Of a stretch of DNA of 45,238 bases, positions 1-45,238 are shown in pieces. Position numbers and translations under genes: made by a program. This stretch comes from a virus. The DNA lies in the IMG/VR virus record IMGVR_UViG_3300037882_003008, positions 1 to 45,238 of that record; one strand, 5' to 3'. Within the stretch, counting starts at the first letter, position 1, and each line of letters begins with the position of its first letter. The notes under the pieces are model-generated. The model was given only the letters and a program-made list of their open reading frames with translations. It was not told the DNA's origin and made no database searches.

Positions 1-1
1 C

Positions 2-91
2 ACGCACGATGGAGCGGAGTTCTATAGCAGCGACTCACACATCCGCGCGGCTGATCACGCCATGACAGTCCTCATGGGAGACGAAGCATGA
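2..91 (+). CDS. C-terminal part of small protein spanning the contig joint
   Basis: This is the 3' part of a gene that starts at 45190. Joining the window ends over the shared 11 bases gives one open frame of 42 codons plus stop. Its TGA at 89-91 overlaps the ATG of the next gene (ATGA), the translational coupling seen elsewhere in this genome. I do not recognise the product; it is small, acidic to neutral, and has no clear membrane segment or motif. The continuous frame over the joint is the main evidence that it is real. It would be the first gene of a short operon running to 690. Confidence 0.7.
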   Translation, partial: THDGAEFYSSDSHIRAADHAMTVLMGDEA

Positions 92-381
92 GCCGCACTC
101 AATTCTTGACAGTCGAAGACGTAGTCGCATTCGCACGCGTTGCAGCCTATCGGGCGATCGGGGACTCACATCCTCGCTCGTCCGAGTTGGACACAGCATA
201 CGCGCTAGCGTTGGTCCACGAACTGGCGTGTCGCACACAGTTAGCGCGGGTCGAGACGTGCTACGATGAATGGGGGGTCGAGTCGCAACGCATCGTTCAC
301 CCAGACGGTCGTGACCTTGCCGAGTGCTGGGTCGAGATCGACAAGGCGTATGGCGTTGCACATTTCTATTGGGAGTCGTAA
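88..381 (+). CDS. hypothetical protein, 97 aa
   Basis: Small acidic soluble protein, not recognised. The ATG at 88 overlaps the stop of the upstream gene and follows GGGAG at 75-79. The N-terminal half is alanine-rich and probably helical; the C-terminal half looks like short strands rich in aromatic residues and ends HFYWES. It is second in a four-gene operon (45190 across the joint to 690) that comes before the late operon. Position after a strong host-type promoter and small size fit an early host-modifying protein, but that is inference. Confidence 0.7.
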   Translation: MSRTQFLTVEDVVAFARVAAYRAIGDSHPRSSELDTAYALALVHELACRTQLARVETCYDEWGVESQRIVHPDGRDLAECWVEIDKAYGVAHFYWES

Positions 382-382
382 C

Positions 383-583
383 ATGATCTTACTATCAACT
401 TTCCTCGGAAATGACGTATGCGACTTCCGCCAGATCACGCCGACCGAGCGTGCAATGCTCCTGCGAGTGCTGCACGACCATTACTACGAGCGAAGGCCGG
501 AGACACACCACGAGCGACTCGCGTTCTTACGCAAAGTCGACCTGGTGCTGCTCGGATACCGCGAAGGGATGAAGCACATATGA
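383..583 (+). CDS. hypothetical protein, 66 aa
   Basis: Begins one base after the previous stop, with GGGAG at 371-375 as ribosome binding site. The product is charged, with no signal peptide: a short hydrophobic start (ILLSTFLG) then a basic, probably helical region. The open frame extends upstream to 266, but that part lies inside the previous gene and has no ribosome binding site, so I take 383. Its stop overlaps the start of the next gene. Function unknown. Confidence 0.65.
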   Translation: MILLSTFLGNDVCDFRQITPTERAMLLRVLHDHYYERRPETHHERLAFLRKVDLVLLGYREGMKHI

Positions 584-690
584 CCGACCTACTAATCCAC
601 ATCTTCCTCTGGACTGCGGGTATCACAGCCCTGATGTCCATCATCGAGTCAACGACAGCGCTCGCTCGCTGGTTCATGGACGAGAGCTAA
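580..690 (+). CDS. 36-aa single-pass membrane peptide
   Basis: ATG at 580-582 overlaps the previous TGA (ATGA), and GAAGGG at 563-568 is a fitting ribosome binding site. After MTD comes about 20 mostly hydrophobic residues (from LLIHIFLW to about LMSII), one membrane span, then a short tail ending RWFMDES. Size and topology resemble small phage inner-membrane peptides that act on the host envelope or help lysis; which of these is unknown. It is the last gene before the terminator at 712-742. Confidence 0.55.
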   Translation: MTDLLIHIFLWTAGITALMSIIESTTALARWFMDES

Positions 691-711
691 GTCACACCAT
701 CACAGCACAGG

Positions 712-742
712 ACAGGGCAGGCGCAGAGCTTGCCCTGTTTTG
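712..742 (+). terminator. intrinsic terminator after the small-gene operon
   Basis: Perfect 8-bp stem ACAGGGCA (712-719) / TGCCCTGT (731-738), 11-base loop, then TTTT. It lies 21 bases after the stop at 690 and closes the operon that starts before the contig joint. Confidence 0.85.
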
Positions 743-1042
743 GTGCGCTAGGAGGGTCGCCATGCTCGCTCACCCGTTGGGTGGCTGCGCGTGCCGATGC
801 AACGTGAGTCTTACTAGGGGCGGGGGGTGCCCCCCCATTGACGGCGGCACCGGGGTCCTTTAATATGAGTCACACACTCTCCGGCAAAATTTGAAAAAAG
901 AAGTTGACTCGCGGCTGTTATTGCCGTTATGTAGCGGGCGCAGGAGACTCAAGGCGTTTTAGGGTTGACACGACGGGGGCGGACTGGCACGGTGACGAGG
1001 CGGGCGCAGGCCCCGCAGTTGAAGGAAAGGAGAGTTTGAGTC
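743..1042 (+). other. non-coding leader before the late operon
   Basis: About 300 bases with no convincing gene. It holds a G6-TG-C6 block at 822-835, an AT-richer stretch at 858-905, two TTGAC-type -35 boxes (904 and 965), and GAAAGGAG at 1024-1031 before the first packaging gene. The GC-rich part from 935 to 1020 has several GGCGGGC-like words that may fold in the transcript. Confidence 0.6.
904..933 (+). promoter_or_regulatory. candidate promoter of the packaging/structural operon
   Basis: TTGACT at 904-909 and TATGTA at 928-933, with 18 bases between. A second TTGACA at 965-970 has only a GC-rich -10 (CACGGT at 988-993). The -35 boxes match sigma-70-type promoters well and the -10 boxes poorly, as is often seen in alphaproteobacteria. 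No other promoter is evident before the 26-kb plus-strand block. Confidence 0.4.
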
Positions 1043-2205: not shown

Positions 2206-2208
2206 GTC

Positions 2209-3768
2209 ATGTCCGAGGTAGCCGATCGTTTACTGCACGAACTTGAGCGCAAGTATTCGGAGTCGATGGCTGCCGAAGGCGTTGACACGCAATATGCTGA
2301 AATCGACCCTGTGCTGGTCCGGACTCTACTGCGCACCAGCGCCGAGTTCCTGATCGAGTTTTTCTTAGCAGACCAACTGGACATGCCTGTCCCGCAGTTT
2401 CACGCGGAGATTTGGGGCCTACTCACGGATGCCGAGAAAGAGCGAGTCCTGCTCGCCATTCCTCGCGGCCACGCCAAGTCTACGCTGGCCAAGCTGTGCG
2501 TGATCTGGTATTGGCTGTTCACGAGTCACCGCTTCTGCGTCTACCTGTCTAACACAGCCCCCATCGCCAAGGGTGCGTGCCGCGACATCATCGAGTATTT
2601 GAGTCACCCAAATTTCCTCGCGATATACGGTCAGGTCAAGATGGTCAAGCACTCAGAGAACGAGGGGCTGTGGATTTTTGACCTGCCGATGGGCAATGGT
2701 CGAGTCAAGCGCTGCATCCTACGGGCGTTGGGGCAAGGCCAGCAGATGCGCGGCATCAATATCGACAACCAACGACCTGACCTGGCCGTGGTGGATGACG
2801 TTGAGGACAACGACAATACCGCGTCTGAGTCGCAGCAGAAGAAGCTGGACCAGTGGATGTATGGACCTTTCCTGCAAGCACTCGCGCAGCGCAGGAAGAT
2901 TCTGTGGCTCGGTAATATGTTGGCCAAGACTTCGCTGCTGTCGCGCCAGAGTCGTAACCCTGCGTGGAACCCAGTTATATTCGGCTGCCTGATCAAGGAT
3001 GCCGAGGGGAATCTCCGTCCCTTATGGCCCGACAGATGGACAGTGGAACAGCTGACTGAGTCGTTCCGGGAATACAAAGGCATGGGACTCGTCGAGACCT
3101 GGATGTGCGAGATGATGAACATGCCGGGCCACGGAGAGAATGGGTTTACGGCCGATCAATTAAACTATCTGCCGACTCCAGACCCAGCAGATGTGGCCGC
3201 CGCGTGGATCACGATCGACCCGGCGTTCGGGCTGGCCGCCCACAACGATGAGTCAGCAATCGCCGTTCATGTCATCACTCGCGGAGGCACTACGCCGATC
3301 ACCCTACCACCCATACACGGGCACTGGAACGAGTCGCAGCTATTCGACGAGGCCCTGGCACTTGCAATGCATTGGGGTGCTTGGACTTGGGGCATCGAAG
3401 CTGTAGCAGCCCAGCGAGTCCTGCTGCCCTTGTTCGAGATGCTGGCGGCGTCCAAGGGGCTGGCAGGTCGATTCGTGTTCCTGCCACTAATGAGTGGGCG
3501 AGGTGATCCCAAGATAGGTAGGATACGCGCTTACGTCTCGCTGCTCACGTCGAAAGATTGGGCGCTGGCTGAAGAGGACATTGATCTCACGACCCAGATC
3601 TTGAATCTGGATATGCGCCGTAAGGATCAAGTCGACGACATCGCGGATGCGGCGGCGTATGGCCCCGCAATGTTCAAGGAGTTCGAGGGACTCATAACAC
3701 ACCAATTTGCGTCAACCGGCGACTCGGTTGCGCGTGTGCAACACGGAATGGAGGTAGCAGGTGTCTAA
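2209..3768 (+). CDS. terL: terminase large subunit
   Basis: Packaging motor with ATPase and nuclease: it pumps DNA into the prohead and cuts the concatemer. Visible: Walker A IPRGHAKST at about residues 84-92, Walker B with catalytic acids (LAVVDDVED) at about 190-198, and the start of the RNase H-like nuclease (ITIDPAFG) at about 337-344 with later acidic residues (DDIADAAAYG near 480). Length 519 is usual for the family. Start ATG 2209 follows closely on the previous stop; the ribosome binding site is modest. The end overlaps the portal start by 8 bases, the usual terL-portal order. Confidence 0.95.
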   Translation: MSEVADRLLHELERKYSESMAAEGVDTQYAEIDPVLVRTLLRTSAEFLIEFFLADQLDMPVPQFHAEIWGLLTDAEKERVLLAIPRGHAKSTLAKLCVIWYWLFTSHRFCVYLSNTAPIAKGACRDIIEYLSHPNFLAIYGQVKMVKHSENEGLWIFDLPMGNGRVKRCILRALGQGQQMRGINIDNQRPDLAVVDDVEDNDNTASESQQKKLDQWMYGPFLQALAQRRKILWLGNMLAKTSLLSRQSRNPAWNPVIFGCLIKDAEGNLRPLWPDRWTVEQLTESFREYKGMGLVETWMCEMMNMPGHGENGFTADQLNYLPTPDPADVAAAWITIDPAFGLAAHNDESAIAVHVITRGGTTPITLPPIHGHWNESQLFDEALALAMHWGAWTWGIEAVAAQRVLLPLFEMLAASKGLAGRFVFLPLMSGRGDPKIGRIRAYVSLLTSKDWALAEEDIDLTTQILNLDMRRKDQVDDIADAAAYGPAMFKEFEGLITHQFASTGDSVARVQHGMEVAGV

Positions 3769-6766: not shown

Positions 6767-7951
6767 ATGATTCCTGGTATCTTCATGTCCAACCAAGGGA
6801 TTGTAGGAGACCGAGTCGGCGATTTCGCGTCGGCCATCCTCCAGATCAATCCGACCGGGACTGCACTCATGCTGGCGCTCTCGTCTGGCATGGCGAAGAC
6901 TCCGGCCAGCGACTCCATCTTCACCTGGTTCGAGGACTCGCATCAGGCAGGGCGGACCACGATTGCCAGTGGCGGCACCAGCACCACGATCGTGGTCGGT
7001 GACGGCTCCATGTATGTGGCTGGGCAGGTGTTGTTGGTCGAGGAGACCGGGGAGATCGTCTACGTGACCGGAGTCAACGGCAACTCGCTCACCGTGACTC
7101 GTGGCATTGGCGGCACGTCCATCGTGGCTGTCACCAACGTGATGCACGTGCAGTCGATCGGCAACGCTCACGAGGAAGCCTCGGATCGCCCGACTGCTGT
7201 GACTCAGCTGGGCGTCTCGCGGACCAATGTGACTCAGATCTTCCGCAATGCGTGGGCGGTTTCTGGCACGTCTCGCGCCGTGAAGTATCGGACCGGCTCC
7301 AAGGTGGCGCACAACAAGTCCATGTGCGCGCTCTATCACGCGGAGGACATCGAACGCGCCTTCATCTTCGGGCGTCGCCACGTCGGTTCGCTGAACGGCA
7401 AGCCGTTCCGTATGAGTGACGGGATTCAGTCGCAGCTGAGTCAATACGGTGGTATCGTCGAAGCGGCGAACAGCGGGGGCGCCGGACAGCTCTCGTGGGT
7501 CGACTTCGAGGACTTCATCCGGCGCGTGTTCGCCACCAATGTGAAAGGTCAGCCGACCGAGCGAATCGCGATCGGTGGTGACATCTGCATTGCAGTGCTG
7601 AACGGCATGGCGCGACTCGACGGCACCTACAACATCAAGGCTGGCGAGACTATGCTGGGCATCAAGGTGACGGAAATTGTCACGGCGTTCGGCACCTTGA
7701 AGTTGATGACTCACCCGCTGTTCAACGAGAACCCTGTCTGGCAGAAGGACCTGATGGTGCTGCATCCGGGCGCGATTCGCAAGCGCGTGCTCCGCGAAAC
7801 GCAGGATGAGGGGTATGATTCCAACGGGAATCGGCTCGATGGCCGCGATGCCGACGAAGGCCTCATGACCACGGAAATGGGATTCGAGGTTGGCGCTGCG
7901 TCCACCATGGGTATGCTGACTAACGTCGCAACTGCGGTGGCGAGCGCCTAA
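6767..7951 (+). CDS. major capsid protein (SU10/DUF5309-like)
   Basis: 394 residues, HK97-fold type by family impression. N-terminus GIFMSNQGIVGDRVGDFASAI, then a beta-rich insertion at about residues 70-115 (VVGDGSMYVAGQVLLVEE; SLTVTRGIGGTS) typical of the SU10 major capsid family, then an alpha/beta body with VTEIVTAFGTLKLMTHPLF near residue 305. Strong ribosome binding site GAAGGAG. A terminator follows closely at 7977-8016, as is common after capsid genes, to boost capsid over downstream tail genes. Confidence 0.88.
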   Translation: MIPGIFMSNQGIVGDRVGDFASAILQINPTGTALMLALSSGMAKTPASDSIFTWFEDSHQAGRTTIASGGTSTTIVVGDGSMYVAGQVLLVEETGEIVYVTGVNGNSLTVTRGIGGTSIVAVTNVMHVQSIGNAHEEASDRPTAVTQLGVSRTNVTQIFRNAWAVSGTSRAVKYRTGSKVAHNKSMCALYHAEDIERAFIFGRRHVGSLNGKPFRMSDGIQSQLSQYGGIVEAANSGGAGQLSWVDFEDFIRRVFATNVKGQPTERIAIGGDICIAVLNGMARLDGTYNIKAGETMLGIKVTEIVTAFGTLKLMTHPLFNENPVWQKDLMVLHPGAIRKRVLRETQDEGYDSNGNRLDGRDADEGLMTTEMGFEVGAASTMGMLTNVATAVASA

Positions 7952-9886: not shown

Positions 9887-10954
9887 ATGGCACGCAACTT
9901 CTGGGAGTCGTTCGACTCGTATTCGACTGCCGTAGGTTCTAGGCCTCAGGATCGTGGGTGGATTGCGTCTGGTGGCCTGGGAATGACATTCAGCGTGGGT
10001 AACGCGCGATTCGGCGTTGGACAGGGCATAGCGCTGTCGGACGGCAGCGGAGAGTCAGAGTCACTGTCACGCATACTACCTAACGGCGAATATTTCAACA
10101 TAGCCGTGGCGCACAAGCTAGACAACACAGGGCTGACGTCCATCCGAGTCGGTGGCGGTAGCTCCAACACCACCGCGCATCTGGGCTTGGTGTTCGACCC
10201 AACCGGTCGAGTGACTCTGCGCGCGTTCACATCCACCATCTACAATATTTTCGTCGACTTGGCCTCGGTTATCGTGCCTGGAGTCGCCGTCAATCAATAC
10301 CTGTTCGTGTCGTGCTCCGGTCGCATCCACGCCACGCTTGGAGAGGTGCGAGTCGCAATCAACGGCGTGGAAGTCCCTGGATTGGCTGTCAGTAACGTCG
10401 ATACCCTCAACGTATCCACAGGGCAGTTGTGGGCACAGCTAGGCCCTTACGGGGCCACGTCCGGTGGCGGGACAAGCAACTGGATTTATGACGACTACGT
10501 GGATGACGACTCGGCCTCTGTAACCCTTATACCTGAACGTCGCGTGTATGTCCAGCGCCCCAGCGGTGACGGGGCCACCCTGCTGTTGGTCCCCTCCACG
10601 GGCGTGAGTCACTTCGGCGTGATAGATGAGGGTGTCGTGACCACCACCGACTACCTGTCAGGTAGTGCCGTCAATGACTTGGACCTGATTCTGCTTACTG
10701 ACCTAGCTTATGTGCCCGCCGTAATCGACGGAGTCAACGTAATCGTCAATGCGCAGAAAACCGACGCCATCGCACGATCTATTGACGTTGGGGTGTTGTC
10801 CGGCGCCACGGTGGCGTCCAGCCCCGATCGTGCTCTGAATAGTTCCGCCGCGTTCTACGACTCAGGGCGGTTACTCACTGACCCCAATACTGGGGCTGCG
10901 TGGAGTTTCGCCGGAGTCAACGCACTACAAGCCAGACCGCGTGTCAGCGTGTAG
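9887..10954 (+). CDS. lectin-like tail protein, 355 aa
   Basis: The N-terminal 200 residues look like a concanavalin-type jelly roll (ARNFWESFDSYST; EYFNIAVAHKLD; HATLGEVRVAINGVEV; NWIYDDYVDDD), a fold used in phage tail proteins for carbohydrate contact. The C-terminal part is beta-rich with no known motif (VNDLDLILLTDLAY). Start ATG 9887 lies 12 bases after the previous stop. Likely a tail appendage; the jelly-roll call is inference from pattern. Confidence 0.65.
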   Translation: MARNFWESFDSYSTAVGSRPQDRGWIASGGLGMTFSVGNARFGVGQGIALSDGSGESESLSRILPNGEYFNIAVAHKLDNTGLTSIRVGGGSSNTTAHLGLVFDPTGRVTLRAFTSTIYNIFVDLASVIVPGVAVNQYLFVSCSGRIHATLGEVRVAINGVEVPGLAVSNVDTLNVSTGQLWAQLGPYGATSGGGTSNWIYDDYVDDDSASVTLIPERRVYVQRPSGDGATLLLVPSTGVSHFGVIDEGVVTTTDYLSGSAVNDLDLILLTDLAYVPAVIDGVNVIVNAQKTDAIARSIDVGVLSGATVASSPDRALNSSAAFYDSGRLLTDPNTGAAWSFAGVNALQARPRVSV

Positions 10955-10956
10955 CT

Positions 10957-12801
10957 ATGGCGGGTGAATACAGGTTCAATCATGCCTCGGCTGAAGTTCT
11001 TGGCGCTGGGCTGGCAGCTACTACGGCGCGATTCAATCACGTATCGGCTGAAGTTCTTGGCGCGGGATTAGCGGCTACTACGGCGCGATTCCACAGTGTA
11101 TTCGTAGAAGTTCTGGGAGCTGTCCCGCAGGGATTCTTCCCTACGCTCCTTGACGAGGATATCTCAGAGCCGTTCGTCGGTGGCGTCGACTCGTTCGTGG
11201 AGTTCTACCAGCCAAGTCTGTTAGATGAGGGCGATCAGGTATTCCCGGCTAGCTTCGCCGAGGTCTTCTCGCCCGCTACGGTCGATGACTCAGCCGCTGA
11301 CTTCGCTGGAGGATTTCCGGCGTTCGTCGTGGCGCAAGCCCCTGCAATCCCTTACGAATGGAACCCGCTGCGACCTGACGTCCCGGCGGGACTCGACACC
11401 GACCTGCCGCTATATGCGTATATGCGTGAGCAGGCGGAGATTCTCCGCGAACAGCACGACATAGCGCAGGCTGGCGGCACAACGTTCCCGTGGGAGTTGA
11501 TGACTCGACTCTCCGCCACGCAGCAGTTCCAGCTGGGCGCCATGAGTCGCTTTTATCATGAGCGGCACGGCATATTGCTGGCTCGATACGTCAGGTTCAG
11601 TCCTAGATGGGGCGGCGGCATGCACGTGCCGGTGGGTCACGACTCGCTGCACCCGGATTGGGTGGTTACCGACCGGCTCAACAATAGTCATTGGTCGCGA
11701 TTGGTGGGCGTATCCACCAACTACGAGTCAGATGTCGGGGGCCTCTACGGCTGGGTGCTGGTCCAAGGTCGCGCCCCAGTTGCGTTGCAAGTTGCTGGCC
11801 TGAGTCCAGTAAGCATGGAACCACTAACTTGGGTGGCCGACGGCGTGGCAGGTTACGGTGCGGGCAAGAGCATTGGATTCGTGCTCAAATCTTCGTCCGT
11901 CCGCCCCTCACAGACGACTGATTACGAGCTGCCTGCGTTTGAGTGGGTCTGCGACGTGTCGGGAGTCACTGACGCGCATGTATTGCAGGTCTCGGCTGGC
12001 GCTCTAGATGCACTGGATGATCGAGTCACCGCAGTAGAGAACACGCTGGGCGCCGGATTAGTGGACTATCAGCCTCAAATCGACTCGCTATCGTCACGCG
12101 CCGACAACTTGACGGTTGCTATCGGTGCCGAGTCCAGGCAGCGGTCGATGGTAGACTCTTCGATGGCGGCCCGCATCAACGTGCTGGAGAGCGCAGCTAC
12201 CCTCGGCGTGACTCATGCAGAGTTCAACGCGCTCGATGCTCGTGTCGTGACATTGGAGGCTGGTGCGCTGATTGATACCAGCGCACTAGAAGCTAGCGTG
12301 GTTGCACTCTCGGCCACCTCTGTGAGTTACGGCGGGCGTATCACGACGCTTGAGTCGAATGTGACTGGGTTGACTTCGCTGGCGGCTGGGTTGACGGCGT
12401 CATTCGGTTCCATTGACTCGCTGGGCGATGTCGATACTAGCACGATCGCGCCATCACCCGGTCAACTGATTGGATGGGACGGCTCGTTATGGGTGCCAGT
12501 GAATCCCCCCAGCGGCGGCTCGGTATTGTTCGACGTCATTGAGGTGGACGTAGGCGCGCCTGCCCGGGACTCCGGCTCTGTCACGGTCGGAGGCTTGACT
12601 GGACTGATTGTCGGCAAGCCTGTTGTGATGTGGCAGGCACTGGAGTCGGTGACAGGTAAAGGTGACCTGAGCGACAACGCTGAGTTGGAGGGTGTTTCCG
12701 CGTCCGGAATCGTGTCGTCCGCAACGGAAATCGCAGTTACATGGTGGGCCAAATCGCCTGTGGCCGGAATCGTGAAGTTCAACTATCTGATAGGAGGCTG
12801 A
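10957..12801 (+). CDS. tail fibre protein with N-terminal 19-residue repeats
   Basis: 614 residues, start ATG 10957, two bases after the previous stop. Residues about 7-57 are two copies plus part of a third of a 19-residue unit (RFNHASAEVLGAGLAATTA). The middle (about 130-330) is a compact region with WVLVQGRAPVALQV and WVADGVAGYGAGKSIGFVL; from about 340 comes a coiled-coil or trimeric stalk (DALDDRVTAVENTL; RSMVDSSMAARINVLES), and then a beta-rich C-terminal tip (LIGWDGSLWVPVNPP). This order suits a trimeric tail fibre. Which end binds the virion is not clear. Confidence 0.75.
   Translation: MAGEYRFNHASAEVLGAGLAATTARFNHVSAEVLGAGLAATTARFHSVFVEVLGAVPQGFFPTLLDEDISEPFVGGVDSFVEFYQPSLLDEGDQVFPASFAEVFSPATVDDSAADFAGGFPAFVVAQAPAIPYEWNPLRPDVPAGLDTDLPLYAYMREQAEILREQHDIAQAGGTTFPWELMTRLSATQQFQLGAMSRFYHERHGILLARYVRFSPRWGGGMHVPVGHDSLHPDWVVTDRLNNSHWSRLVGVSTNYESDVGGLYGWVLVQGRAPVALQVAGLSPVSMEPLTWVADGVAGYGAGKSIGFVLKSSSVRPSQTTDYELPAFEWVCDVSGVTDAHVLQVSAGALDALDDRVTAVENTLGAGLVDYQPQIDSLSSRADNLTVAIGAESRQRSMVDSSMAARINVLESAATLGVTHAEFNALDARVVTLEAGALIDTSALEASVVALSATSVSYGGRITTLESNVTGLTSLAAGLTASFGSIDSLGDVDTSTIAPSPGQLIGWDGSLWVPVNPPSGGSVLFDVIEVDVGAPARDSGSVTVGGLTGLIVGKPVVMWQALESVTGKGDLSDNAELEGVSASGIVSSATEIAVTWWAKSPVAGIVKFNYLIGG
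10975..11124 (+). repeat. 57-base tandem repeat (2.6 copies) in fibre gene
   Basis: Copies at 10975-11031 and 11032-11088, with a degenerate partial third from 11089 to about 11124. Each starts TTCAATCA/TTCCACA and contains TGAAGTTCTTGG or its variant. It keeps the reading frame (19 codons). Confidence 0.85.
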
Positions 12802-12802
12802 G

Positions 12803-27073: not shown

Positions 27074-28422
27074 CCGGTGTAGTCCGATTTCTCGCTGAGG
27101 AGTCTGATCATGGCGTCCTCTGTATCTTCGCGACGGAAGCGGGCACTGATGAGAGTCGTGCCCGCTTTGTTCTGCGCCTGCACGATCTGCCCTGCCCTGC
27201 TTAGATCTGTGATTACCTCCGCGATGTCTCGACTCGTGGCATCTCTATGGAACATGGCGATGATCTGCTCCATAGTCAGCGGCCCCTGCTGACGGCGCAA
27301 CTCCTCCAGAATCTCCTGCTTGACTACCGCCAGCGGATTGAGTCCGAACTCGCCTAGCGCGTCTGGCATGCCAACCTCCATCGCGCGTAGGATTCGGTGC
27401 GCCTCCTGATAGTCGTCAACTTGGATTACCAACTCCGGTTTCTCGAACGAGCAGCGAGTGGCGGCTAGTGCCATCGCAAACTTGATCACGTGCATATATC
27501 GGCGTTCCGCGTAGAAAGCAAAGCGCGAGTCAGTGATCGGTAGCCTGTAGCTATACAAGTCCTCGCGTAGCTTATACGCTTCCGGTGACTCGGTGAACGG
27601 CCCGTTACCATACCGGTAAACGTCGTGCAGCACACCCTCGACTCGCCGCACTATATCTACGTCAGGCGCTATGGGTGTTGGGATTTCCCTGTATTTTCTG
27701 GCGCCGTAAACCAATATGAATCGAGATAGGATTCCCTGCCCTCCAGCAGCTGGTGGCAGCGCCGTGTTCAGGGACACTGGAGTCGTGGCAGCCAGAATAT
27801 TCATCAACGTATTCTTGAGAGTTATCTCGGTCTGCCGAGTCCGGTAACCGTAATCCTCGCCGTCATATCGCTCGACAAGGAAGTCCAGTAGTGACAGGTT
27901 GTTCTGGCCTATGAATCGAGAGAACTCTGACGCGGCGACGACGATATGATGCGCGTCCAGCATGTGCGGCTCGTCAACCATATCGTCGCCAGTCGCTGGT
28001 CCTAGGTCCATGCTCTCTAGGTCAGACAGGGACATGAGTCCTCCCTGTTTCGTTGCCCGCTCAACCGCCAACTCCAGCCGCCGATCCTCGTCGCCCTCCT
28101 TGCCCATCATGTCCAGTGCAAGCCCCTGCCGCTGTCCGCCGCTATCGCCTGAAGCGAATCTGACTTTGGTGGAGGCTTTAAGCGATCTGCGGGCCATGCT
28201 CAACGCAGTGCTCTTGCGACTCGCTGGTGTGCCGATCAGCAGCATATACATGTTCGGCAGCACGTTGATGTGACCGAACGGCAGCCAGCAGCGTCGCCCA
28301 AGCGCAGACGACACAGCCCAAAGAGCCGCCGCTATGTGGAACACACGCGGCGACTCCGTATTCTCGACCATCTGCATGTAGTCCCGCAGATACGCGGAAC
28401 CAAACAACGACGACTCAGCCAT
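27070..28422 (-). CDS. P-loop ATPase of primase/helicase (DUF3987-like) type
   Basis: 450 residues. Walker A LLIGTPASRKST at about 61-72, preceded by a helical region with FHIAAALWAVSSALGRR, as in DUF3987/RepA-like helicase parts of phage primase-helicases; a later acidic segment (HHIVVAASEFSRFI) suits Walker B, and PVSLNTALP is in the sensor position. The C-terminal 90 residues look like a winged helix (GPLTMEQIIAMFHRDATSRD). No primase (TOPRIM or AEP) domain is visible. It probably acts as replicative helicase or loader. It ends on the same TTAA as the converging plus-strand gene. Confidence 0.65.
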   Translation of the reverse strand: MAESSLFGSAYLRDYMQMVENTESPRVFHIAAALWAVSSALGRRCWLPFGHINVLPNMYMLLIGTPASRKSTALSMARRSLKASTKVRFASGDSGGQRQGLALDMMGKEGDEDRRLELAVERATKQGGLMSLSDLESMDLGPATGDDMVDEPHMLDAHHIVVAASEFSRFIGQNNLSLLDFLVERYDGEDYGYRTRQTEITLKNTLMNILAATTPVSLNTALPPAAGGQGILSRFILVYGARKYREIPTPIAPDVDIVRRVEGVLHDVYRYGNGPFTESPEAYKLREDLYSYRLPITDSRFAFYAERRYMHVIKFAMALAATRCSFEKPELVIQVDDYQEAHRILRAMEVGMPDALGEFGLNPLAVVKQEILEELRRQQGPLTMEQIIAMFHRDATSRDIAEVITDLSRAGQIVQAQNKAGTTLISARFRREDTEDAMIRLLSEKSDYTG

Positions 28423-28443: not shown

Positions 28444-29046
28444 TTAAAGTTTCCAGCCCATCTGGTTGACGAGTCGACTGTAAAGCCCGCCCGCTTCAGT
28501 GCGAAGATCGTCAAGCGATCCATTGTTAGGGTGCATTGCGATTCCACCTCCCGGATTACGCACCCACTCGCGGGAATCATCCTCGAAGGTGGCGCCGTCG
28601 CGGTGAATCTGGACTGCGTAGAAATTGGCCAGCCCTGCTTGTGCTGCGATGTAATCGGCCTCAATCTGGAAGCCGGTGTCCGTTACCAGTGCGAGGCCGC
28701 TGAAGTTACGCAGCGAGTTCATCAGGATCCAAGCCATTACATCGGGGCCATACACGGGCTTCAGGAACGACTCAGATACGTCGATCATCAACTGCCTGCC
28801 GGTGCGGCCCCCGAACAGCTCGAACCGAGTCGACTTGAACTCGGCGTAGTTCTCGCCCTCGAATCCATCGCCATCGGCACTGCAGGGCCAGTTGACCATC
28901 GAGTAAGCGATATGCCTGAGCGGCGACGATAGATGGACCAACCTGACTGGAATCGTGCAGCCTTGTTGATCCATGTGGTCCGCCAACATCGCAGCCATCG
29001 TGTCTTTGCCGCTTCGTGGCGGTCCATTGAATCCTACGATATACAT
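28444..29046 (-). CDS. deoxynucleoside monophosphate kinase-like protein
   Basis: 200 residues with N-terminal P-loop GFNGPPRSGKDT (residues 5-16), the form seen in phage dNMP kinases (T4 gene 1 type), which turn dNMPs into dNDPs for DNA synthesis. FELFGGRTGRQLMIDVSESF in the middle matches the region that family uses for substrate binding and catalysis. Start ATG 29046 follows CAGGAGTC. Sits between the helicase and polymerase genes, in keeping with nucleotide supply. Confidence 0.8.
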   Translation of the reverse strand: MYIVGFNGPPRSGKDTMAAMLADHMDQQGCTIPVRLVHLSSPLRHIAYSMVNWPCSADGDGFEGENYAEFKSTRFELFGGRTGRQLMIDVSESFLKPVYGPDVMAWILMNSLRNFSGLALVTDTGFQIEADYIAAQAGLANFYAVQIHRDGATFEDDSREWVRNPGGGIAMHPNNGSLDDLRTEAGGLYSRLVNQMGWKL

Positions 29047-35368: not shown

Positions 35369-35985
35369 ATCAAATCATCCAGATCAGCAAGGTCTGCCAT
35401 GATCGCGGCAACTGCATCACTCCGCTTGGCCGTCCGAGTCGAAGCCTTCTTCTCTTTGACGATCTTTGTCAACCCCATAGTTTCACGCATCATACGGACA
35501 ATGACTCGAACGTCATCAGGCAATACGTGATCCATGTATTGTTGGTTGTGCTTGAGTTCAATCATCACTTGGCGGATTGCGCTAGAGGCCAACTCCGGCT
35601 CGGGCGTAAGCCTGTGCAGGTGATCCAGATTCTCCACGAATCGAATCACTGCTGCCGTTACATCGGCGGGCAGTTCGCGCTGCGGTGCCGTTGCTGGTAG
35701 GTGGTCGGGGAACGCGACACGAGTCATGGCGTCAACTTCAGCCGCCAGCGCATCAAGCGGGTCAACGTAGGCCACTGCAGCGGGGTGCGCACTTGACTTT
35801 GTAGCAGCTGGCTGGGCCTGACTAGTGCTGCCGCCGATCTTGAAACCGCCAAACGGATTCTTGGCTGATGGCGCTGACTCAGCTGGGTCGCCCTCTGTAA
35901 TCGAGGCAGGGGCTTCATGTGGCAGCGACGCAGAATCAGCCGCAGCCTGCCGCGCCTTACCGAAGATATCTCCTAGCTTACTCAT
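35365..35985 (-). CDS. hypothetical protein, 206 aa
   Basis: Starts at ATG 35985 (MSKLGDIFGKARQ), just after GGAGG and overlapping the previous stop (ATGA); a longer frame to 36075 lacks a ribosome binding site. The first 95 residues are Ala/Pro/Ser-rich and disordered (ITEGDPAESAPSAKNPFGGF). A helical domain follows (DVTAAVIRFVENLDHLHRL; SSAIRQVMIELKHNQQYMD; VRVIVRMMRETMGLTKI), and then a basic and an acidic tail (KEKKASTRTAKRSD; DLADLDDLM). The acidic end recalls SSB-type C-termini; no family recognised. Confidence 0.65.
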   Translation of the reverse strand: MSKLGDIFGKARQAAADSASLPHEAPASITEGDPAESAPSAKNPFGGFKIGGSTSQAQPAATKSSAHPAAVAYVDPLDALAAEVDAMTRVAFPDHLPATAPQRELPADVTAAVIRFVENLDHLHRLTPEPELASSAIRQVMIELKHNQQYMDHVLPDDVRVIVRMMRETMGLTKIVKEKKASTRTAKRSDAVAAIMADLADLDDLM

Positions 35986-36356
35986 GCCGCGCCTCCTGCC
36001 GAGTCGATGTTGTCCAGTGCCAGCATTTTCTCGACCTCCAATAGAACTGTCTGGTAGCGTGACCGAACCAACCACATTACTATGGCGTCGAATCGGACTC
36101 CGCTGTGTGTCTCCTGATGCACTGTCGCATGCAGCTGAAACTCCTGAATCCCACGACCACGCGCCTTAGAGCGCGCTTTGTCACGCTCTCTGGACAGCTT
36201 CATCCTGACGCGATTAATGAGCGCCTGTGACTGACCGGTCGGGCACAGAAACAGGACTCGTCCGTCCTGCATAACCACTCGCAGAATCTCCACGAGAAGC
36301 CGCCCCGTGTCGTTCAGTGGCGGGTTTTCGAGTCGTATTGTCATGGCAATTTCCAT
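35982..36356 (-). CDS. hypothetical basic protein, 124 aa
   Basis: Compact alpha/beta protein: RLLVEILRVVMQDGRVLFLC, then PTGQSQALINRVRMKLSRER, DKARSKARGRGI, EFQLHATVHQETHSGVRFDA and VMWLVRSRYQTVLLEVEKML. The basic middle could touch nucleic acid. First gene after the promoter at 36366-36398. Start may be 36356, only some 7 bases from the expected transcript start, or the in-frame ATG at 36344. Function unknown. Confidence 0.65.
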   Translation of the reverse strand: MEIAMTIRLENPPLNDTGRLLVEILRVVMQDGRVLFLCPTGQSQALINRVRMKLSRERDKARSKARGRGIQEFQLHATVHQETHSGVRFDAIVMWLVRSRYQTVLLEVEKMLALDNIDSAGGAA

Positions 36357-38090: not shown

Positions 38091-38578
38091 ATCCCTTCCC
38101 CGCGCAGCAGGCACTCAGGGCCGATCCCCTGCGCCACCGACACCGGGTCCGTTAGCTTGCGCCCGCAGACACAGCACTTGCCTTCATGGAAGAACTCGAC
38201 TCGCGAGGGCCACCGGCACCCCTGATCAAGCGCGTTCCAGCAGTAGGCCAGCCCCTTGAACGACGGGGCTTGGTTGCTGACTCGACTCTTGGCCGTGGTG
38301 TGCAGGTTGTAACTCCCATCCACACTCCGATCAAGCAGGCCCATATAGACGTAGTCCGACTCGCGGCCCCCGCCGACCAACACCGATACGAAGAACCGAT
38401 CCTTGTTGATGTTCGTGGTTGACCAGTCCCTGCTGTCGTCGAGTCGAACTGACTTCACCTTGTAGGTGTATCGGTCGCCCGTCTCCAGCGAGCGTAGGGT
38501 GAAGGCCGCGTTACCGCCCAAGATATAGCGGCGGATTTCGCCGGGAGTCGTGAGCTGTCCTTGTTGATCTTCAGTCAT
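38087..38578 (-). CDS. DUF6011-like protein with Cys-rich C-terminus, 163 aa
   Basis: Start ATG 38578 (MTEDQQGQL) after GGAGGGC; a longer frame to 38608 is less likely. Residues about 20-110 are beta-rich (AAFTLRSLETGDRYTYKVKS; DRFFVSVLVGGG; DYVYMGLL). The end has KCCVCGRKLTDPVSVAQGIG then PECL, the short zinc-binding module seen in many phage proteins (CxxCxRxLtdp.S...GiGp.C). Probably binds DNA or a replication partner; the exact role is unknown. Confidence 0.7.
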   Translation of the reverse strand: MTEDQQGQLTTPGEIRRYILGGNAAFTLRSLETGDRYTYKVKSVRLDDSRDWSTTNINKDRFFVSVLVGGGRESDYVYMGLLDRSVDGSYNLHTTAKSRVSNQAPSFKGLAYCWNALDQGCRWPSRVEFFHEGKCCVCGRKLTDPVSVAQGIGPECLLRGEGI

Positions 38579-38622
38579 GGGTGTGCCCTCCAGCCTATGA
38601 TGATGCAACGCTTGCGCATGAC

Positions 38623-40908
38623 TCAGCGTCCTTTAGACTTAGCAAAAAGTTGACCCAACGTCAGCCCAACAGACTTAGGCTCCGGTGATGAGGGTTGAGT
38701 CGCAGGCTGGTAGGTCAGCATCTTGGGCGTCCCCTCCACAGCATGGCGCAGCGCAACGAGAGTCCGCGCTGCGCCCCAACAAGGAACCGCGATACGAGCG
38801 GTCGGAGGAGGCAGTGCGATCTTGATCGGCGTGAGTCGTCCACCATACACGCTCACAGGTTCATCGACTGGGTCCGGGTCTTGCGCTGGTTCCGTCACGT
38901 GAATGTTGACGTTCACCGTGTGACGGATTTCGACTCGGATACCTGCATCTGGTGCTTCGGACTCGGCCCCTGACTGCTGCTGCTGTTGCTGCTGCCGTTG
39001 ACGGGAGACAAGCTTTGCTAGGCCGGTCGACTGGCTCCCCGCTGTGAGTCGACGTTCAGTCTCCCTGCTGCGATCATCGGATTGAATATCTTGGTCGAGG
39101 ATCGACGGGTAGGGCGACTCACTCACAGGCAGGTTAATGGCTGCGGATGCCTCGTCCACGCCCCTAGGGAACATGATTCGCTGGAACGCCAGCACCTTAT
39201 CGCGCAGTGAACTGCCGGGAATGGCCTGACGATTCAACGCGATGCGCAGGCCACGATCAGTATAGACTAAGATGCAGTTCTTGCTGGCGCGGGTAATGGC
39301 CGTGTAAAGCCATTCGCGGGAGAGTGATCCGGAGTGCGACTCGTGCAGCACGATCACTACAGTGGGGCACTCACCGCCCTGCATCTTGTGGCAGGTCATG
39401 GCGTAAGCCAATTGCAGTGTTCCCACCTCGGCCAATGATTCGAACACTTTCTGGAACGCAGCGTCGCCGGAACCGAACTCAATGACCACACTATGTGACG
39501 CAGGGCCACGATCACGTGACTCCTTCGCTGCGGGCGCCTTCTTGGCGTTCTCGTTGATGGAATCGACCATCGAGTCAAGATCGTCCAAATCCACCTCATC
39601 TTCTGGCAGGCTGCCAGCACCGCGCGCGAATCGGGCGTTGACTTCCGCCAGCGTGCCGTAGTGCATCCGACTCCCGGTGTAACCCGCGTTCTCGATAATG
39701 TCCACGATATGCCCGGTCATGCCGTTGGTGATTCCGCTGGGCCAATCGTTCTTGGTGGCCATGACCTTGTCACCAACCGCGAACAGCTTCTTCTCGCGCC
39801 CACCGTCGATCACGAATCGTGGATGCGCGTTCTCGGAACCGAACATCATACTCAAGTGTTCGTTGAGGGGGTAATCACCTAAGGCTGCTCCGGGGCCGGG
39901 ATTGATCCCGTGAATCGGCGTGATGATCACGTCGCGCAGAGGCTTGTAGACTCCCAGCGAGTGCAGCTTCCGCGCCAGCGCCCGCACGTATGATGAAGCC
40001 TTGAGCGACTCAACTGGCATCTCAACCATCTTGAATACGCCTTCGGTTTGCGGGCGGATGCCGTGAATGACTCGCCACGCGTTGTCCACGATAGGGTTGT
40101 TAGTCCCGGCCTGCCGGTGGACCTCGGCCAACTCGAAAGTGGGCCAGCGAGCCATTGCGAATCCGAACACGCTCTTACCGTAAATGGGTGCAAGCTGGTC
40201 GATGTCACCGATCATGTAGATTCGGACAGACGGCTTACAGGCCGCGATTAGCTGGTGCCACAGGTCGAGTCCCAGCATGCCAGCCTCGTCAATGATAATG
40301 ACATCCCAAGGCAGCAATAGCTGCGCGTTGTAGGTGGGCACGAATCGCATCTTGTTCTTCCAGACCCCTGACTCGGCATCGTAATCCTCGTAAGTCTCCG
40401 GCACGAACCCGAGCAATCGGTGAATCGTCATGATGTTGCCGTGCCATGAAGTAGGGAAGTTGCCCTTGATCTGCTGTGCGGCCTTCCCAGTATAGGCGCA
40501 CATCGCGATGGACTCGACAACTGACTCCCCGTCAACGGAGTCATACTGATCGTCCGCGTCAACGGGGGCCGCGTCGGCTTTCCAGTAGCCGCTCAAATCG
40601 ACTCGGCCAAGTGAGGCCACGTCCAGTAATTCGTCCACGAACCGCTTGGTAGTCGTGGTTTTGCCCGTGCCTGCCGCGCCGGTGAGACACGCGAATCGCG
40701 ATGCAACCATCCCGGTCACGGCGTTTAACTGCGACTCGTCGAACGGGAAATCGTCCGATACAAGGCGGACGCGCGCGGAGGGTTCCTCGGTTGGTGAGTC
40801 CAATGCAGCGGACCTATGCGCAATTTCGATCAACTCGGTTGATTGGGCGTCTGCCACGATTCCTTCGCGGACAGCGGACTTTGCCGAGCCTAAGGTGAAG
40901 CCAGCCAT
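38623..40908 (-). CDS. RecD/Dda-like superfamily 1B DNA helicase
   Basis: 761 residues. Motif I LTGAAGTGKTTTTKRF at about 75-90, motif II VIIIDEAGMLGLD, a Gln motif (FDESQLNAV at about 56-64), the UvrD_C_2-type part YAMTCHKMQGGECPTVVIVL and motif VI LYTAITRASKNCIL. This is the RecD2/Dda 5'-3' helicase pattern. After about residue 600 comes a disordered tail with a run of Gln (RQRQQQQQQQ) and a short conserved-looking end GLTLGQLFAKSKGR. Start after GGAAGGACTC. Likely drives replication restart or recombination. Confidence 0.9.
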   Translation of the reverse strand: MAGFTLGSAKSAVREGIVADAQSTELIEIAHRSAALDSPTEEPSARVRLVSDDFPFDESQLNAVTGMVASRFACLTGAAGTGKTTTTKRFVDELLDVASLGRVDLSGYWKADAAPVDADDQYDSVDGESVVESIAMCAYTGKAAQQIKGNFPTSWHGNIMTIHRLLGFVPETYEDYDAESGVWKNKMRFVPTYNAQLLLPWDVIIIDEAGMLGLDLWHQLIAACKPSVRIYMIGDIDQLAPIYGKSVFGFAMARWPTFELAEVHRQAGTNNPIVDNAWRVIHGIRPQTEGVFKMVEMPVESLKASSYVRALARKLHSLGVYKPLRDVIITPIHGINPGPGAALGDYPLNEHLSMMFGSENAHPRFVIDGGREKKLFAVGDKVMATKNDWPSGITNGMTGHIVDIIENAGYTGSRMHYGTLAEVNARFARGAGSLPEDEVDLDDLDSMVDSINENAKKAPAAKESRDRGPASHSVVIEFGSGDAAFQKVFESLAEVGTLQLAYAMTCHKMQGGECPTVVIVLHESHSGSLSREWLYTAITRASKNCILVYTDRGLRIALNRQAIPGSSLRDKVLAFQRIMFPRGVDEASAAINLPVSESPYPSILDQDIQSDDRSRETERRLTAGSQSTGLAKLVSRQRQQQQQQQSGAESEAPDAGIRVEIRHTVNVNIHVTEPAQDPDPVDEPVSVYGGRLTPIKIALPPPTARIAVPCWGAARTLVALRHAVEGTPKMLTYQPATQPSSPEPKSVGLTLGQLFAKSKGR

Positions 40909-41719: not shown

Positions 41720-41938
41720 TCAGTTTGATTCGGCGGCGGCATTGGTGAAGGTTAAGGGACGGATAAGCACGGCCTGCCCGTTGTTCACGGCCCAATGTAG
41801 GTGATTCGTGAGCCATTTGCGGTCGCTGGAATCGTTCCAGTCCACCACTTTCGAGTCTAGCGGGGTATCATCACGGAGTGCGCGCAATCCGTCTGCGCGG
41901 GACAATCCCCCTGTTAAGACGCGGATCATGTGTTGCAT
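41720..41938 (-). CDS. hypothetical protein, 72 aa
   Basis: ATG 41938, with AAAGG some 10 bases before; a second ATG at 41929 is possible. Contains VLTGGLSRADGLRALRDDTP and WLTNHLHWAVNNGQAVLIRP. First gene after a promoter-like TTGACA at 42031-42026. Function unknown. Confidence 0.55.
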   Translation of the reverse strand: MQHMIRVLTGGLSRADGLRALRDDTPLDSKVVDWNDSSDRKWLTNHLHWAVNNGQAVLIRPLTFTNAAAESN

Positions 41939-42921: not shown

Positions 42922-43026
42922 ACTCACTCACTCCTTCCATTTCAGCTTCCCGCCCTGCCCCCGGTTTCGGTTCCGGTTCCGAGTCCACCGCAGCAGGGCA
43001 TCGGGTTTAGTCTTGTTGTGTGGGGA

Positions 43027-43055
43027 CTCTAGCATTTTACGGATTGTTATGTCAA
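43027..43055 (-). promoter_or_regulatory. promoter of the minus-strand early cluster
   Basis: Minus strand: TTGACA at 43055-43050, 17 bases, CTAGAG at 43032-43027; the overlapping GCTAGAGT is close to the alphaproteobacterial -10 (GCTANAWC). About 100 bases lie between this and the first start codon at 42921. Confidence 0.55.
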
Positions 43056-43078
43056 TGTTATTGTCCGATTATCCCACT

Positions 43079-43100
43079 GTCCACGTGTCCACGTGTTCAC
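43079..43100. repeat. tandem 8-mer GTCCACGT
   Basis: Two exact copies (43079-43086 and 43087-43094) and a partial third (GTTCAC, 43095-43100), each holding a CACGTG palindrome. Lies upstream of the minus-strand promoter's -35, where activators or repressors bind. Confidence 0.6.
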
Positions 43101-43612
43101 CACGCGCACGGCGTCACCTCACCCGCTCCCACGCCTTGCATCGAATTGCATTTCCCCTGACTCATGCAATCACACCTCAATCATCCGTCCCTAGGATTCA
43201 TACCATGTTACGGACTCTAGACCCCTCCCTTATGAAAAATCTCGATAGCAACTATAAGGGGGCGCCAGGACTGCGGACAGCACAACACATCGCAGGCGCA
43301 ACGGCAATGGAGCCGATCACGACTCGCTCGCGCGCGCGCACGATAGAGGGAAAGGTGTGCGGCATCTGCTATAGGGGTGAAAACACGGGAGGGGAGGCTA
43401 TTGCGTCCTGCGGACAAGTGGGCATGCGGACAAACGGATGGCCGGGCAGTTATCGGGTCAACGTGGCAGCAAACCCGATTGTCTTTGCGTTTTGGACTCA
43501 AACCGGCGGAAGCCGCGGGGCGCGGCAGCGAAGCGACGAACTGGGCAGGGCCAGCCAATCCACCGAACCCGTGGCTAGGCGCATAATGGCTTGCGCGGGG
43601 CGCTTAGGGCGC

Positions 43613-43641
43613 TTGACACTCGCACCCGTTTCCTTTACCGT
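43613..43641 (+). promoter_or_regulatory. promoter of gene at 43697
   Basis: TTGACA (43613-43618), 17 bases, TACCGT (43636-43641). The -35 is overlapped by the second copy of a 9-base tandem repeat (GGGCGCTTA, GGGCGCTTG; 43598-43615). Transcription would begin near 43648. Confidence 0.6.
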
Positions 43642-43647
43642 GCAAGC

Positions 43648-43674
43648 ACGGCCTGCAACCCCGCAGCCGTTTTT
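43648..43674 (+). promoter_or_regulatory. hairpin plus T-run at the transcript start
   Basis: ACGG-CTGC pairs with GCAG-CCGT (one bulged C, six-base loop), followed by TTTTT. It begins at the predicted transcript start, so it would form a 5' cap hairpin or an attenuator for the gene at 43697; it could also stop read-through from upstream. Confidence 0.5.
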
Positions 43675-43696
43675 AACCTTCGAAGGACTCAATACC

Positions 43697-44626
43697 ATGA
43701 CCACCGACACCACCCAAACCGCTGGCGCACTCAAGCCCACTGTTGAACTTGTCACAGAACGCCGCTGTTATCCGACTCTTGAACTTGCGGGGGTGGCACT
43801 AGCCGCGATTGCCGCGCAGGCCTCAGATTTTGATTCGATTACCCTTGTTGCGCCGGGCGCTTCATTCGTCGAAGGCGAGTTTACACCCACCGCGCCGGAA
43901 TGGACGAGCGAGAGTCATGAAATCATGCTTGCCCCGCTGGCCACGAAGGCCGCCCGTGATTCCGCCGGCAACGTGACGAAACCGGCCCGCCTTATTGCAC
44001 TTGTGCTGGCTCCGATTCCAACCGTGGATGCTTTGAGCGCGGACACGAAGGGACTCGAAACCCTTGTAGAAGTATGGCGCAAGGAGGCCAACCACCGCGC
44101 GGTGCGGAAGTTGCGCACCGCCGAGAACGTGCTCGCAGCCGCCAGCGAGATGCCGCTATCTCTGGAATCGTTCGTTACCAGCCAGAGCGGGGGCGGAACC
44201 AGTGGCTTGACTGCATTCGACGCGCATTGGCTTGTTTACTCGCAAGCATTGGCCGCGAAAGTCCCGGCGTGGGCCGCTCGATTCCCCGGCGGCAAAGGCA
44301 AGGCCGCGATCCGAGGCGCTCTCGAAAATGCCGCACGCGCCGCCGCGCTATTCAGCGAACTTGAATCTTGGGGGGGCAAGGGTGAATCGCTATTCGCCCG
44401 CATGATTCGCGGCTTGATTGCACAGGCGACAAAGGAGGCCCAGCCTACCGAGTTGCTGGAATCGTGGCTTGCCACCCGTGATTCGCAGACCTACGATGCA
44501 AGCACATCATCGAGCGCAGATATTGACCTCGACGACTTGTTCGCCGATATGGAAGGCGAGGGCGAGGGCGAGGGCGAGGACGGCCCCGGCGACTCGGACA
44601 ATGAGGCCGAACCCGCCGCCGAGTAA
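43697..44626 (+). CDS. acidic-tailed protein, 309 aa, possible SSB-like function
   Basis: Start ATG 43697 after GAAGGA at 43682-43687; the frame is open upstream to 42791, but that part is the regulatory region. Residues 1-110 are beta-type (YPTLELAGVALAAIAAQAS; ITLVAPGASFVEGEF; PARLIALVLAPIPTVD), about 110-250 helical (WRKEANHRAVRKLRTAENV; AIRGALENAARAAALFSELE), and the last 45 very acidic (IDLDDLFADMEGEGEGEGED). An acidic tail is typical of phage SSBs such as gp2.5, but the body was not recognised. It stands alone on its own promoter and terminator, which suits an abundant early protein. Confidence 0.75.
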   Translation: MTTDTTQTAGALKPTVELVTERRCYPTLELAGVALAAIAAQASDFDSITLVAPGASFVEGEFTPTAPEWTSESHEIMLAPLATKAARDSAGNVTKPARLIALVLAPIPTVDALSADTKGLETLVEVWRKEANHRAVRKLRTAENVLAAASEMPLSLESFVTSQSGGGTSGLTAFDAHWLVYSQALAAKVPAWAARFPGGKGKAAIRGALENAARAAALFSELESWGGKGESLFARMIRGLIAQATKEAQPTELLESWLATRDSQTYDASTSSSADIDLDDLFADMEGEGEGEGEDGPGDSDNEAEPAAE

Positions 44627-44645
44627 TCACTCGCGCAGCAAGACC

Positions 44646-44684
44646 GAAGGGGCCGAACTCGCAAGGGTTGCGGCCCCTTCTTTT
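44646..44684 (+). terminator. strong intrinsic terminator after the acidic-tailed gene
   Basis: Perfect 10-bp stem GAAGGGGCCG (44646-44655) / CGGCCCCTTC (44671-44680), then TTTT. Nineteen bases after the stop codon. Confidence 0.9.
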
Positions 44685-44715
44685 ATGTCCGACTCGCGCA
44701 ACAATATTACCCTCC

Positions 44716-44748
44716 CAAAAAATTTTCTGTCCCTGCGGGCCAGAAAAT
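44716..44748 (-). terminator. intrinsic terminator facing left
   Basis: Stem ATTTTCTG (44722-44729) / CAGAAAAT (44741-44748), extended by CCC/GGG across one mismatch, loop TGC. On the minus strand the stem is followed by six to seven Ts (A run at 44717-44722). It would end leftward transcripts arising between here and the contig joint, but no clear minus-strand gene lies there. Confidence 0.75.
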
Positions 44749-45047
44749 AGAAGAGAAGATGAATGGCTTGTCGCCATGAGTTTTGGTTATAGTGAGTCGG
44801 CTGGTCGCCGACGTGTTTTGTGTGGGGGGTCTGCTGGGCGGGGCGGGGGCCTCCACACACAGCAAACTCCGCCCCCTGAACCCCCTCGGCTGCCTATTAC
44901 CACAGATGAACCGGCGCGAGTCACTCAGCTTCGCTTCGTGTCCGCGCCTACGATTTGTCAAGTCCTGCGGACTTCTCCACTGCACAAGATTATTTCCGTT
45001 CTGATGCGCGTGACTCACTGTGGTCACTGATTAATAGAGGAACCCGC
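44749..45047. other. non-coding right-end region
   Basis: About 300 bases without a convincing gene. Contains G/C-rich blocks (44825-44851, and CCGCCCCC near 44870) that can pair, a TGTGTGG / CCACACA pair (44819-44825 and 44853-44859), a minus-strand TTGACAAATC (44962-44953), and the left arm of the inverted repeat at 44988-45077. Candidate for regulation, a small RNA, or a DNA-handling site. Confidence 0.5.
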
Positions 45048-45077
45048 TTGACTCTAGCGCGCGCATCAGAAATAATC
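44988..45077. repeat. large imperfect inverted repeat around a promoter
   Basis: Left arm 44988-45010 reads GATTATTTC, then four extra bases, then the TGATGCGCG part; the right arm 45060-45077 is CGCGCATCAGAAATAATC. The arms pair over 18 bases with a four-base bulge. The 49-base centre includes GTGAC...GTCAC. The right arm holds the -10 (AATAAT) of the plus-strand promoter; the left arm places the same AATAAT on the minus strand. Confidence 0.75.
45048..45076 (+). promoter_or_regulatory. sigma-70-type promoter of the small-gene operon
   Basis: TTGACT (45048-45053), 17 bases, AATAAT (45071-45076): the best promoter match in the window. The predicted transcript has a leader of about 107 bases with a GTGGCA / TGCCAC pair (around 45126-45166) before the start codon at 45190. 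Confidence 0.75.
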
Positions 45078-45189
45078 GTGTTCCGTTACGGCCCTGCGGG
45101 TGACAAATCGTTTCATCTGTCGTGAGTGGCAGCGTGGATTAAGGGGGCAGAGTCGCTCCGTGCCACGTAACTCTTGAAGGAATTGCATC

Positions 45190-45238
45190 ATGAACGATTA
45201 CCTCCTCATCACAAGATCACTAGAAGGCACGCACGATG
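45190..45238 (+). CDS. N-terminal part of small protein spanning the contig joint
   Basis: ATG 45190 after GAAGGA at 45176-45181, a normal ribosome binding site. The first 16 codons read MNDYLLITRSLEGTHD, and the frame continues at the window start (GGA at 11-13 once the 11-base overlap is merged) to TGA at 89-91, giving 42 residues. First gene of the operon that runs to 690. Product not recognised. Confidence 0.7.
   Translation, partial: MNDYLLITRSLEGTHD

Follow-up and report, generated by a model that had tools for sequence, protein, structure and literature searches.

An evenly spaced, genome-wide GANTC array in one phage lineage, tentatively read as sequence-programmed phage chromatin

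Several described systems mark or coat a whole genome by means of a short DNA word or a small protein. HIP1 and the alternative HIPs of cyanobacteria are short palindromes, one of which is grossly over-represented genome-wide, is gained and lost between relatives, and is the target of known DNA methyltransferases (PMC4390886). In Alphaproteobacteria, the CcrM/GcrA system uses GANTC with any centre base, and genomes with CcrM are at least 2-fold depleted of this word genome-wide and over-represent it intergenically (PMC3973325), whereas pelagiphages show GANTC avoidance that follows phage phylogeny (PMC9516812). The small protein p6 organises the phi29 genome at 24 bp per dimer, reading bendability rather than a specific word (PMC10899789), and Sac10b dimers of the Alba family, whose known members lack sequence specificity, coat DNA cooperatively (PMC3325275). 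Here we describe an array of GANTC sites that runs from end to end of the uncultured-virus record IMGVR_UViG_3300037882_003008 (45,238 bp; hereafter, the window) and through the genomes of one lineage of its relatives; apart from named isolates, all sequences compared are metagenomic contigs.

The array resembles HIP in its single over-represented palindrome, its gain or loss between relatives and its methyltransferase-target word, but HIP sites in cellular genomes number roughly one per kb, whereas full genomes of the phage lineage carry 12–18 GANTC per kb; furthermore, HIP genomes usually encode the methyltransferase and none was found in these phages, and the quantised spacing documented here has no counterpart in a spacing analysis that we could find in PMC4390886. 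The likeness to CcrM/GcrA is confined to the word, and the distribution is opposite, with GANTC enriched everywhere and absent upstream of one gene. As in pelagiphages, GANTC frequency follows phylogeny, but as an excess. The p6 repeat lies close to the shortest of the distances preferred here (~25 bp), but the array, which peaks at 25, 51 and 77 bp, also peaks at 33, 59 and 85 bp; no p6 relative turned up, although no search aimed at p6 was made. Similarly, a 124-aa protein of the window has a predicted fold like that of Alba/Sac10b and SpoVS, a likeness that is structural only and of modest Z score. A prior description of GANTC-rich phages was not found in the open-access literature, which yielded only avoidance or unrelated work.

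The window (1–45238, both strands) contains 677 GANTC sites at a mean spacing of 66.7 bp, in coding and unannotated DNA alike, whereas 166 are expected from zero-order composition (4.07-fold). On the same basis, GACTC plus GAGTC numbered 436 (4.5-fold) and GAATC plus GATTC 241 (3.5-fold), ranking first and second among the 512 reverse-complement-collapsed 5-mers. A preliminary description of this DNA had claimed such an excess from hand counts of 68 sites centred on G or C (S) and 35 centred on A or T (W) in 7.2 kb; these counts match the true density, and the excess proved stronger than claimed. It had also considered that unrelated words such as GTNAC might be in equal excess; among the 16 palindromes of the form XXNXX, GANTC alone was strongly enriched (runner-up 1.62-fold, GTNAC 1.29-fold), and other words showed ordinary counts and spacing. 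In the Markov comparison that it proposed, the two collapsed words kept the top two z scores among all 5-mers, but their ratios were just 1.33 and 1.39 under a maximal-order model, because such a model absorbs the inflated sub-words and so understates a dominant word.

Codon shuffling that preserved protein and codon usage left 236 ± 11 sites where 574 were observed (z = 30), with the excess present in all three frames, and unannotated DNA held 99 sites against 26 expected. The excess therefore arises at the DNA level, as the preliminary description had proposed from sites in every frame and in non-coding DNA. Density varies little over the length of the window, at about 13–17 per kb, all centre bases are frequent (119, 122, 203 for GAGTC and 233 for GACTC), and the two orientations are about equal; a palindromic word with a free centre and no preferred orientation indicates reading on duplex DNA.

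The sites are also regularly spaced. The coefficient of variation (CV) of gaps in the window was 0.51, compared with 0.989 ± 0.038 under random placement (2000 draws), and the longest gap was 192 bp, where random placement gave about 470 bp and never less than 301 bp in the same number of draws. Gap CV ranged from 0.48 to 0.56 in the window and in seven complete relatives of ~48 kb; for control words, taken from the window and a single relative, it was 0.88–1.29. Pair correlation pooled over 30 sequences fell to 0.25–0.4 below 22 bp and peaked at about 25, 33, 51, 59–60, 77, 84–85, 108 and 135 bp with dips in between; these preferred distances are pooled statistics, and the main peaks recurred in four sub-lineages taken separately. 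Successive gaps were nearly independent of one another. The preferred distances lie near multiples of 8.5 bp (3, 4, 6, 7, 9 and 10 times), which is a description without a physical model. Phasing at the 10.5-bp helical repeat was weak and gave no clear signal, hairpins between neighbouring sites were rejected for want of complementarity, and greedy motif sets were rejected as no better than block-shuffled controls.

When codons were shuffled with correct gene frames, the pair correlation flattened and density fell from 16.3 to 5.8 per kb; the spacing pattern therefore resides in synonymous choice, not in the proteins. Given the same codons, however, lineage proteins yield 5.8 GANTC per kb and sister proteins 4.0, so that the lineage proteins have shifted too, allowing more GANTC, and amino-acid composition differences between the groups may contribute.

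We located relatives with the terminase large subunit (2209–3768, plus strand; PHROG 38, E 2e-54) and the major capsid protein (6767–7951, plus strand; PHROG 1328), the latter also serving for the tree. These searches returned 54 related viral loci, some of which are overlapping pieces of one contig, with GANTC at 2.7–5.2-fold, GC content of 0.48–0.59 and, in nearly all, even spacing. Independent contigs from many metagenomes agree on the excess at 53–75% terminase identity and across that GC range. In sister phages that share the core genes, GANTC stands at 0.02–1.4-fold and gap CV is near 1; the outgroups gave 1.15-fold (EBPR podovirus 3), 1.13-fold (Polaromonas phage Tiera), 1.46-fold (PaP2) and 0.31-fold (Caulobacter phage Kuura). 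On the capsid tree the trait needs two changes, where label-shuffled trees need 17.8: GANTC-rich tips form one 25-row group (weak support, 82/56) plus L133/L134, which group with the GANTC-poor L136 among the poor sisters. The trait was thus gained twice, or gained once and lost twice. The even spacing, the favoured distances and this restriction to one lineage all go beyond the preliminary description. A pattern scan for the array in unrelated phages gave none among the matches listed, and one sequence (G022) has just a local cluster.

Site sharing between homologous genes was 0.27, against 0.11 in shuffled codons, which is what the threefold density alone predicts; sites thus turn over, and individual sites are not specially conserved. 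Density is uniform over all gene types. What selection seems to maintain is density and spacing. The centre of the word can drift, as in G008 (L062, L063), where A/T-centred sites are strongly preferred (340 W, 111 S) and spacing is looser. In Kuura (L033, L066), a distant relative, GANTC is avoided and the remaining sites are mostly S-centred, which fits a host among the Alphaproteobacteria in which the word is methylated or otherwise used.

One place departs from the array in a recurrent manner. A gap of 191 bp (43495–43686), second in size among the GANTC gaps of the window, lies immediately 5' of a plus-strand gene (43697–44626) for a ~309-aa protein with an acidic C-terminal tail, conserved in the lineage by alignment and of no recognised function, and is directly preceded by another large gap (43321–43495). 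In 12 of the 12 GANTC-rich genomes carrying this gene, the gap at its 5' end is among the three largest of the genome. The two 100-bp bins upstream hold 4–5 GANTC per kb, compared with 17–18 at other gene starts (pooled), and no other region is consistently GANTC-poor. Within the gap, an alignment of ten genomes revealed a promoter-like element, TTGACACTCGCACCCGTTTCCTTTACCGT (43613–43641, plus strand), in which TTG is invariant across all ten and most other copies read TTGACA-17-GACTAT-like; in the window the -10 half is weak, and a consensus scan did not pick the element up. From these alignments we read the gap as a region that may be kept clear of a bound factor, which would protect transcription; an ordinary promoter constraint is possible as well. 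The protein itself, considered as a second candidate reader of GANTC, gave no convincing fold match. In one relative, G018, a 1.8-kb stretch spanning this gene (38479–40302; L137 1–1836) has very few GANTC in an otherwise regular array; an origin of this stretch from GANTC-poor relatives was not supported, its gene being no closer to them.

Our leading interpretation, to which we give not quite half of our confidence, is that a symmetric, dimeric protein recognises the word GANTC in double-stranded DNA and decorates the whole phage genome. Such a dimer would bind roughly one site per 60 bp across the genome, in a chromatin-like manner, and selection would hold density and spacing rather than single sites: a new site would be favoured where the previous one is far away and useless within about 20 bp of another. 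The best distances (about 25, 33, 51, 59, 77 and 85 bp) could then reflect how adjacent bound units are arranged, and the promoter-like region before the ~300-aa gene would stay site-free, like a nucleosome-free region. The array might serve compaction or protection of phage DNA. A protein-decorated array accounts together for the palindrome, the even spacing, the short-range exclusion, the preferred distances and the open gap, and of the reasons listed in the preliminary description, a motif for a DNA-binding protein fits the spacing data best. More tentatively still, the whole may amount to sequence-programmed phage chromatin, in which one lineage would have rewritten its coding and non-coding DNA, and in part its proteins, for tiling by a GANTC reader at quantised steps with one promoter left open.

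Several observations weigh against this interpretation. The GANTC-binding protein itself is hypothetical. With a helical turn of 10.5 bp, the preferred distances do not fall on a common rotational phase and thus do not imply a simple array on one face of the helix. The spacing rule is also soft, since the hazard of meeting another site remains finite past 80 bp. Within the lineage, L130/L025 (2.7-fold) and G008 (CV 0.71) hold the array less strictly, and the promoter gap could reflect the ordinary constraints just mentioned. Finally, the Alba-like gene described below is present in GANTC-poor sisters too; its presence therefore does not decide the trait, and it could matter only through changed specificity.

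There are hints of two kinds of reader, host-encoded or phage-encoded. A tail-fibre-like gene (10900–12801, plus strand), with a conserved N-terminal domain and a coiled-coil stem, was the only window gene family to track the trait: by an iterated hidden Markov model, its domain occurs in 13 of 13 GANTC-rich genomes and 0 of 8 GANTC-poor ones, and searches for relatives of the domain outside the lineage found none. As the trait changes just twice on the tree, the tracking is suggestive rather than proof; since the gene would bear on host range, it hints that the host imposes the trait and encodes the reader. Replication genes, in contrast, are common to GANTC-rich and GANTC-poor phages. The best phage-encoded candidate for a coat or reader is a basic 124-aa early protein (35982–36356, minus strand), predicted by alignment, AlphaFold (pLDDT 86) and Foldseek to be Alba/SpoVS/IF3-C-like. 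Its predicted order, beta-alpha-beta-alpha-beta-beta(-alpha), agrees with the Alba fold, and its top Foldseek matches were Alba and SpoVS (prob 0.93–0.97); VIA Z scores ranged from 5 to 7.2 (7.2 for SpoVS, 6.3 for Sso10b2, 5.8 for IF3-C), all below 8, and no Pfam Alba profile matched at E 0.05.

The trait might instead be imposed by methylation. A host CcrM-like enzyme would methylate phage GANTC, a nuclease or surveillance complex would spare marked stretches of ~60–100 bp, and phages of such a host would be selected for a mark in every stretch. GANTC with a free centre is the exact CcrM/HinfI specificity, long gaps are indeed selected against, the trait tracks the tail-fibre-like gene rather than the replication genes, as if host-imposed, and no phage methyltransferase would be needed. 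The preliminary description had noted none, and our searches agree: Pfam detected no methyltransferase in the 20 window open reading frames (ORFs) scanned, the N6/N4 family PF01555 was absent from 18 genomes, 13 of them GANTC-rich, and PF02086, searched only in five GANTC-poor genomes, had no match. However, the chromosomes of CcrM hosts, at least 2-fold depleted (PMC3973325), would themselves fail the postulated test, and Kuura is at 0.31-fold; GANTC excess is thus not automatic with a CcrM host. About half of pelagiphages are likewise GANTC-depleted (PMC9516812), the preferred distances are not predicted, and both the host and the methylation are hypothetical. We regard this explanation as unlikely.

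Somewhat less probable in our view is a self-limiting mutational ratchet, in which methylation-directed repair keeps GANTC-creating mutations until each neighbourhood within repair range has one site, so that the array would be a by-product without function. A model of this kind has been published for palindromes whose over-representation tracks methyltransferases, namely cyanobacterial HIP (PMC4390886), and it would explain the even spacing, the uniform density over gene types, the turnover of sites and the gain or loss of the trait. It would need a repair range of ~60 bp, however, against about 1000 nt in the HIP model; lytic phages give host repair little time; and neither the preferred distances (25, 33, 51, 59, 77 and 85 bp) nor the recurrent gap is explained.

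The preliminary description had also suggested a primase or packaging word. T7-type primases recognise GTC, and the phage encodes a primase/helicase, a RecD-like helicase and a PD-(D/E)XK nuclease, yet we consider a primase word, a packaging-motor word or a Chi-like signal very improbable: such signals are polar and one-stranded, whereas GANTC is palindromic, evenly spaced and nearly balanced (203 GAGTC and 233 GACTC), its A/T-centred sites, which lack GTC, are enriched too, and the genes concerned are common to GANTC-poor sisters. An artefact of composition, codon usage or assembly has practically no chance, in view of the codon shuffle (z = 30) and the independent contigs.

A four-base word that recurs roughly every 60 bp across all genes is an uncommon instance of a DNA-level code lying over a whole protein-coding genome, and one that alters even the proteins. 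Were a protein to read GANTC, the lineage would show a tailed phage whose sequence encodes a nucleoprotein array over the whole genome, and one would look to a host or phage factor that repays such a cost; were a repair ratchet responsible for the array, a mutational origin of iterated palindromes, a question dating back to HIP1, would gain strong support. In both cases the lineage provides natural contrasts (G016 against G017) in which to look for the cause.

Sequence comparison suggests that the window virus is a distant relative of PaP2-like podophages, Tiera and EBPR podovirus 3, with protein identities of about 24–31%. Its terminase, portal, capsid, polymerase, primase and helicase are homologous to those of PaP2 (Fredfastierviridae), although tblastn identity of the terminase, polymerase, capsid and primase is only about 24–28%. 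A primase/helicase-type replication protein (DUF3987; 27070–28422, minus strand) and a family A DNA polymerase (29314–31971, minus strand) are common to the GANTC-poor sisters, and the window further encodes a portal protein and a PD-(D/E)XK exonuclease beside the RecD-like helicase. Two scans of bacterial and archaeal genomes for a host returned a single match, a GANTC-poor sister phage contig in one metagenome-assembled genome. This contig, L115 (JALUTR010000202.1), sits in a Neomarinimicrobiota assembly and is apparently the same as the L138 contig; the host assignment is doubtful. No tRNA genes that might indicate a host occurred in the loci scanned.

Other words are avoided in the lineage. 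GTAC is nearly absent from the window (1 against 166 expected), absent in G004 and at 0.4–0.9-fold in other full genomes of the lineage, which looks like a restriction-avoidance signature that varies between relatives. Also depleted in the window are CCWGG (40 sites, compared with 134 after codon shuffling of the genes) and AGCTC/GAGCT (20 compared with 84), which are possibly further avoided target words. In relative L003, GATC is wholly absent (0.00-fold) while GANTC stands at 4.5-fold.

Among the GANTC-poor sisters, groups A, B and E retain a 1.6–2.2-fold excess of a word of their own in the codon-shuffle control: TGNCA at about 2.1–2.2-fold or TGCA at 1.6-fold (L086, L087, L139, L155 and G010). 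An apparent 25-bp rhythm in these TGCA- or TGNCA-rich sisters was dropped, as the shuffle left the excess but no significant regular spacing.

Two further genes deserve mention. Deoxynucleoside monophosphate kinase genes are frequent in phages with modified nucleotides, and the window carries one at 28444–29046 (PHROG 139, E 1e-28); no modification genes were recognised. A small ORF at 41720–41938 has a core, SSDRKWL..H..WA..N, that is strongly conserved in six of nine full relatives.

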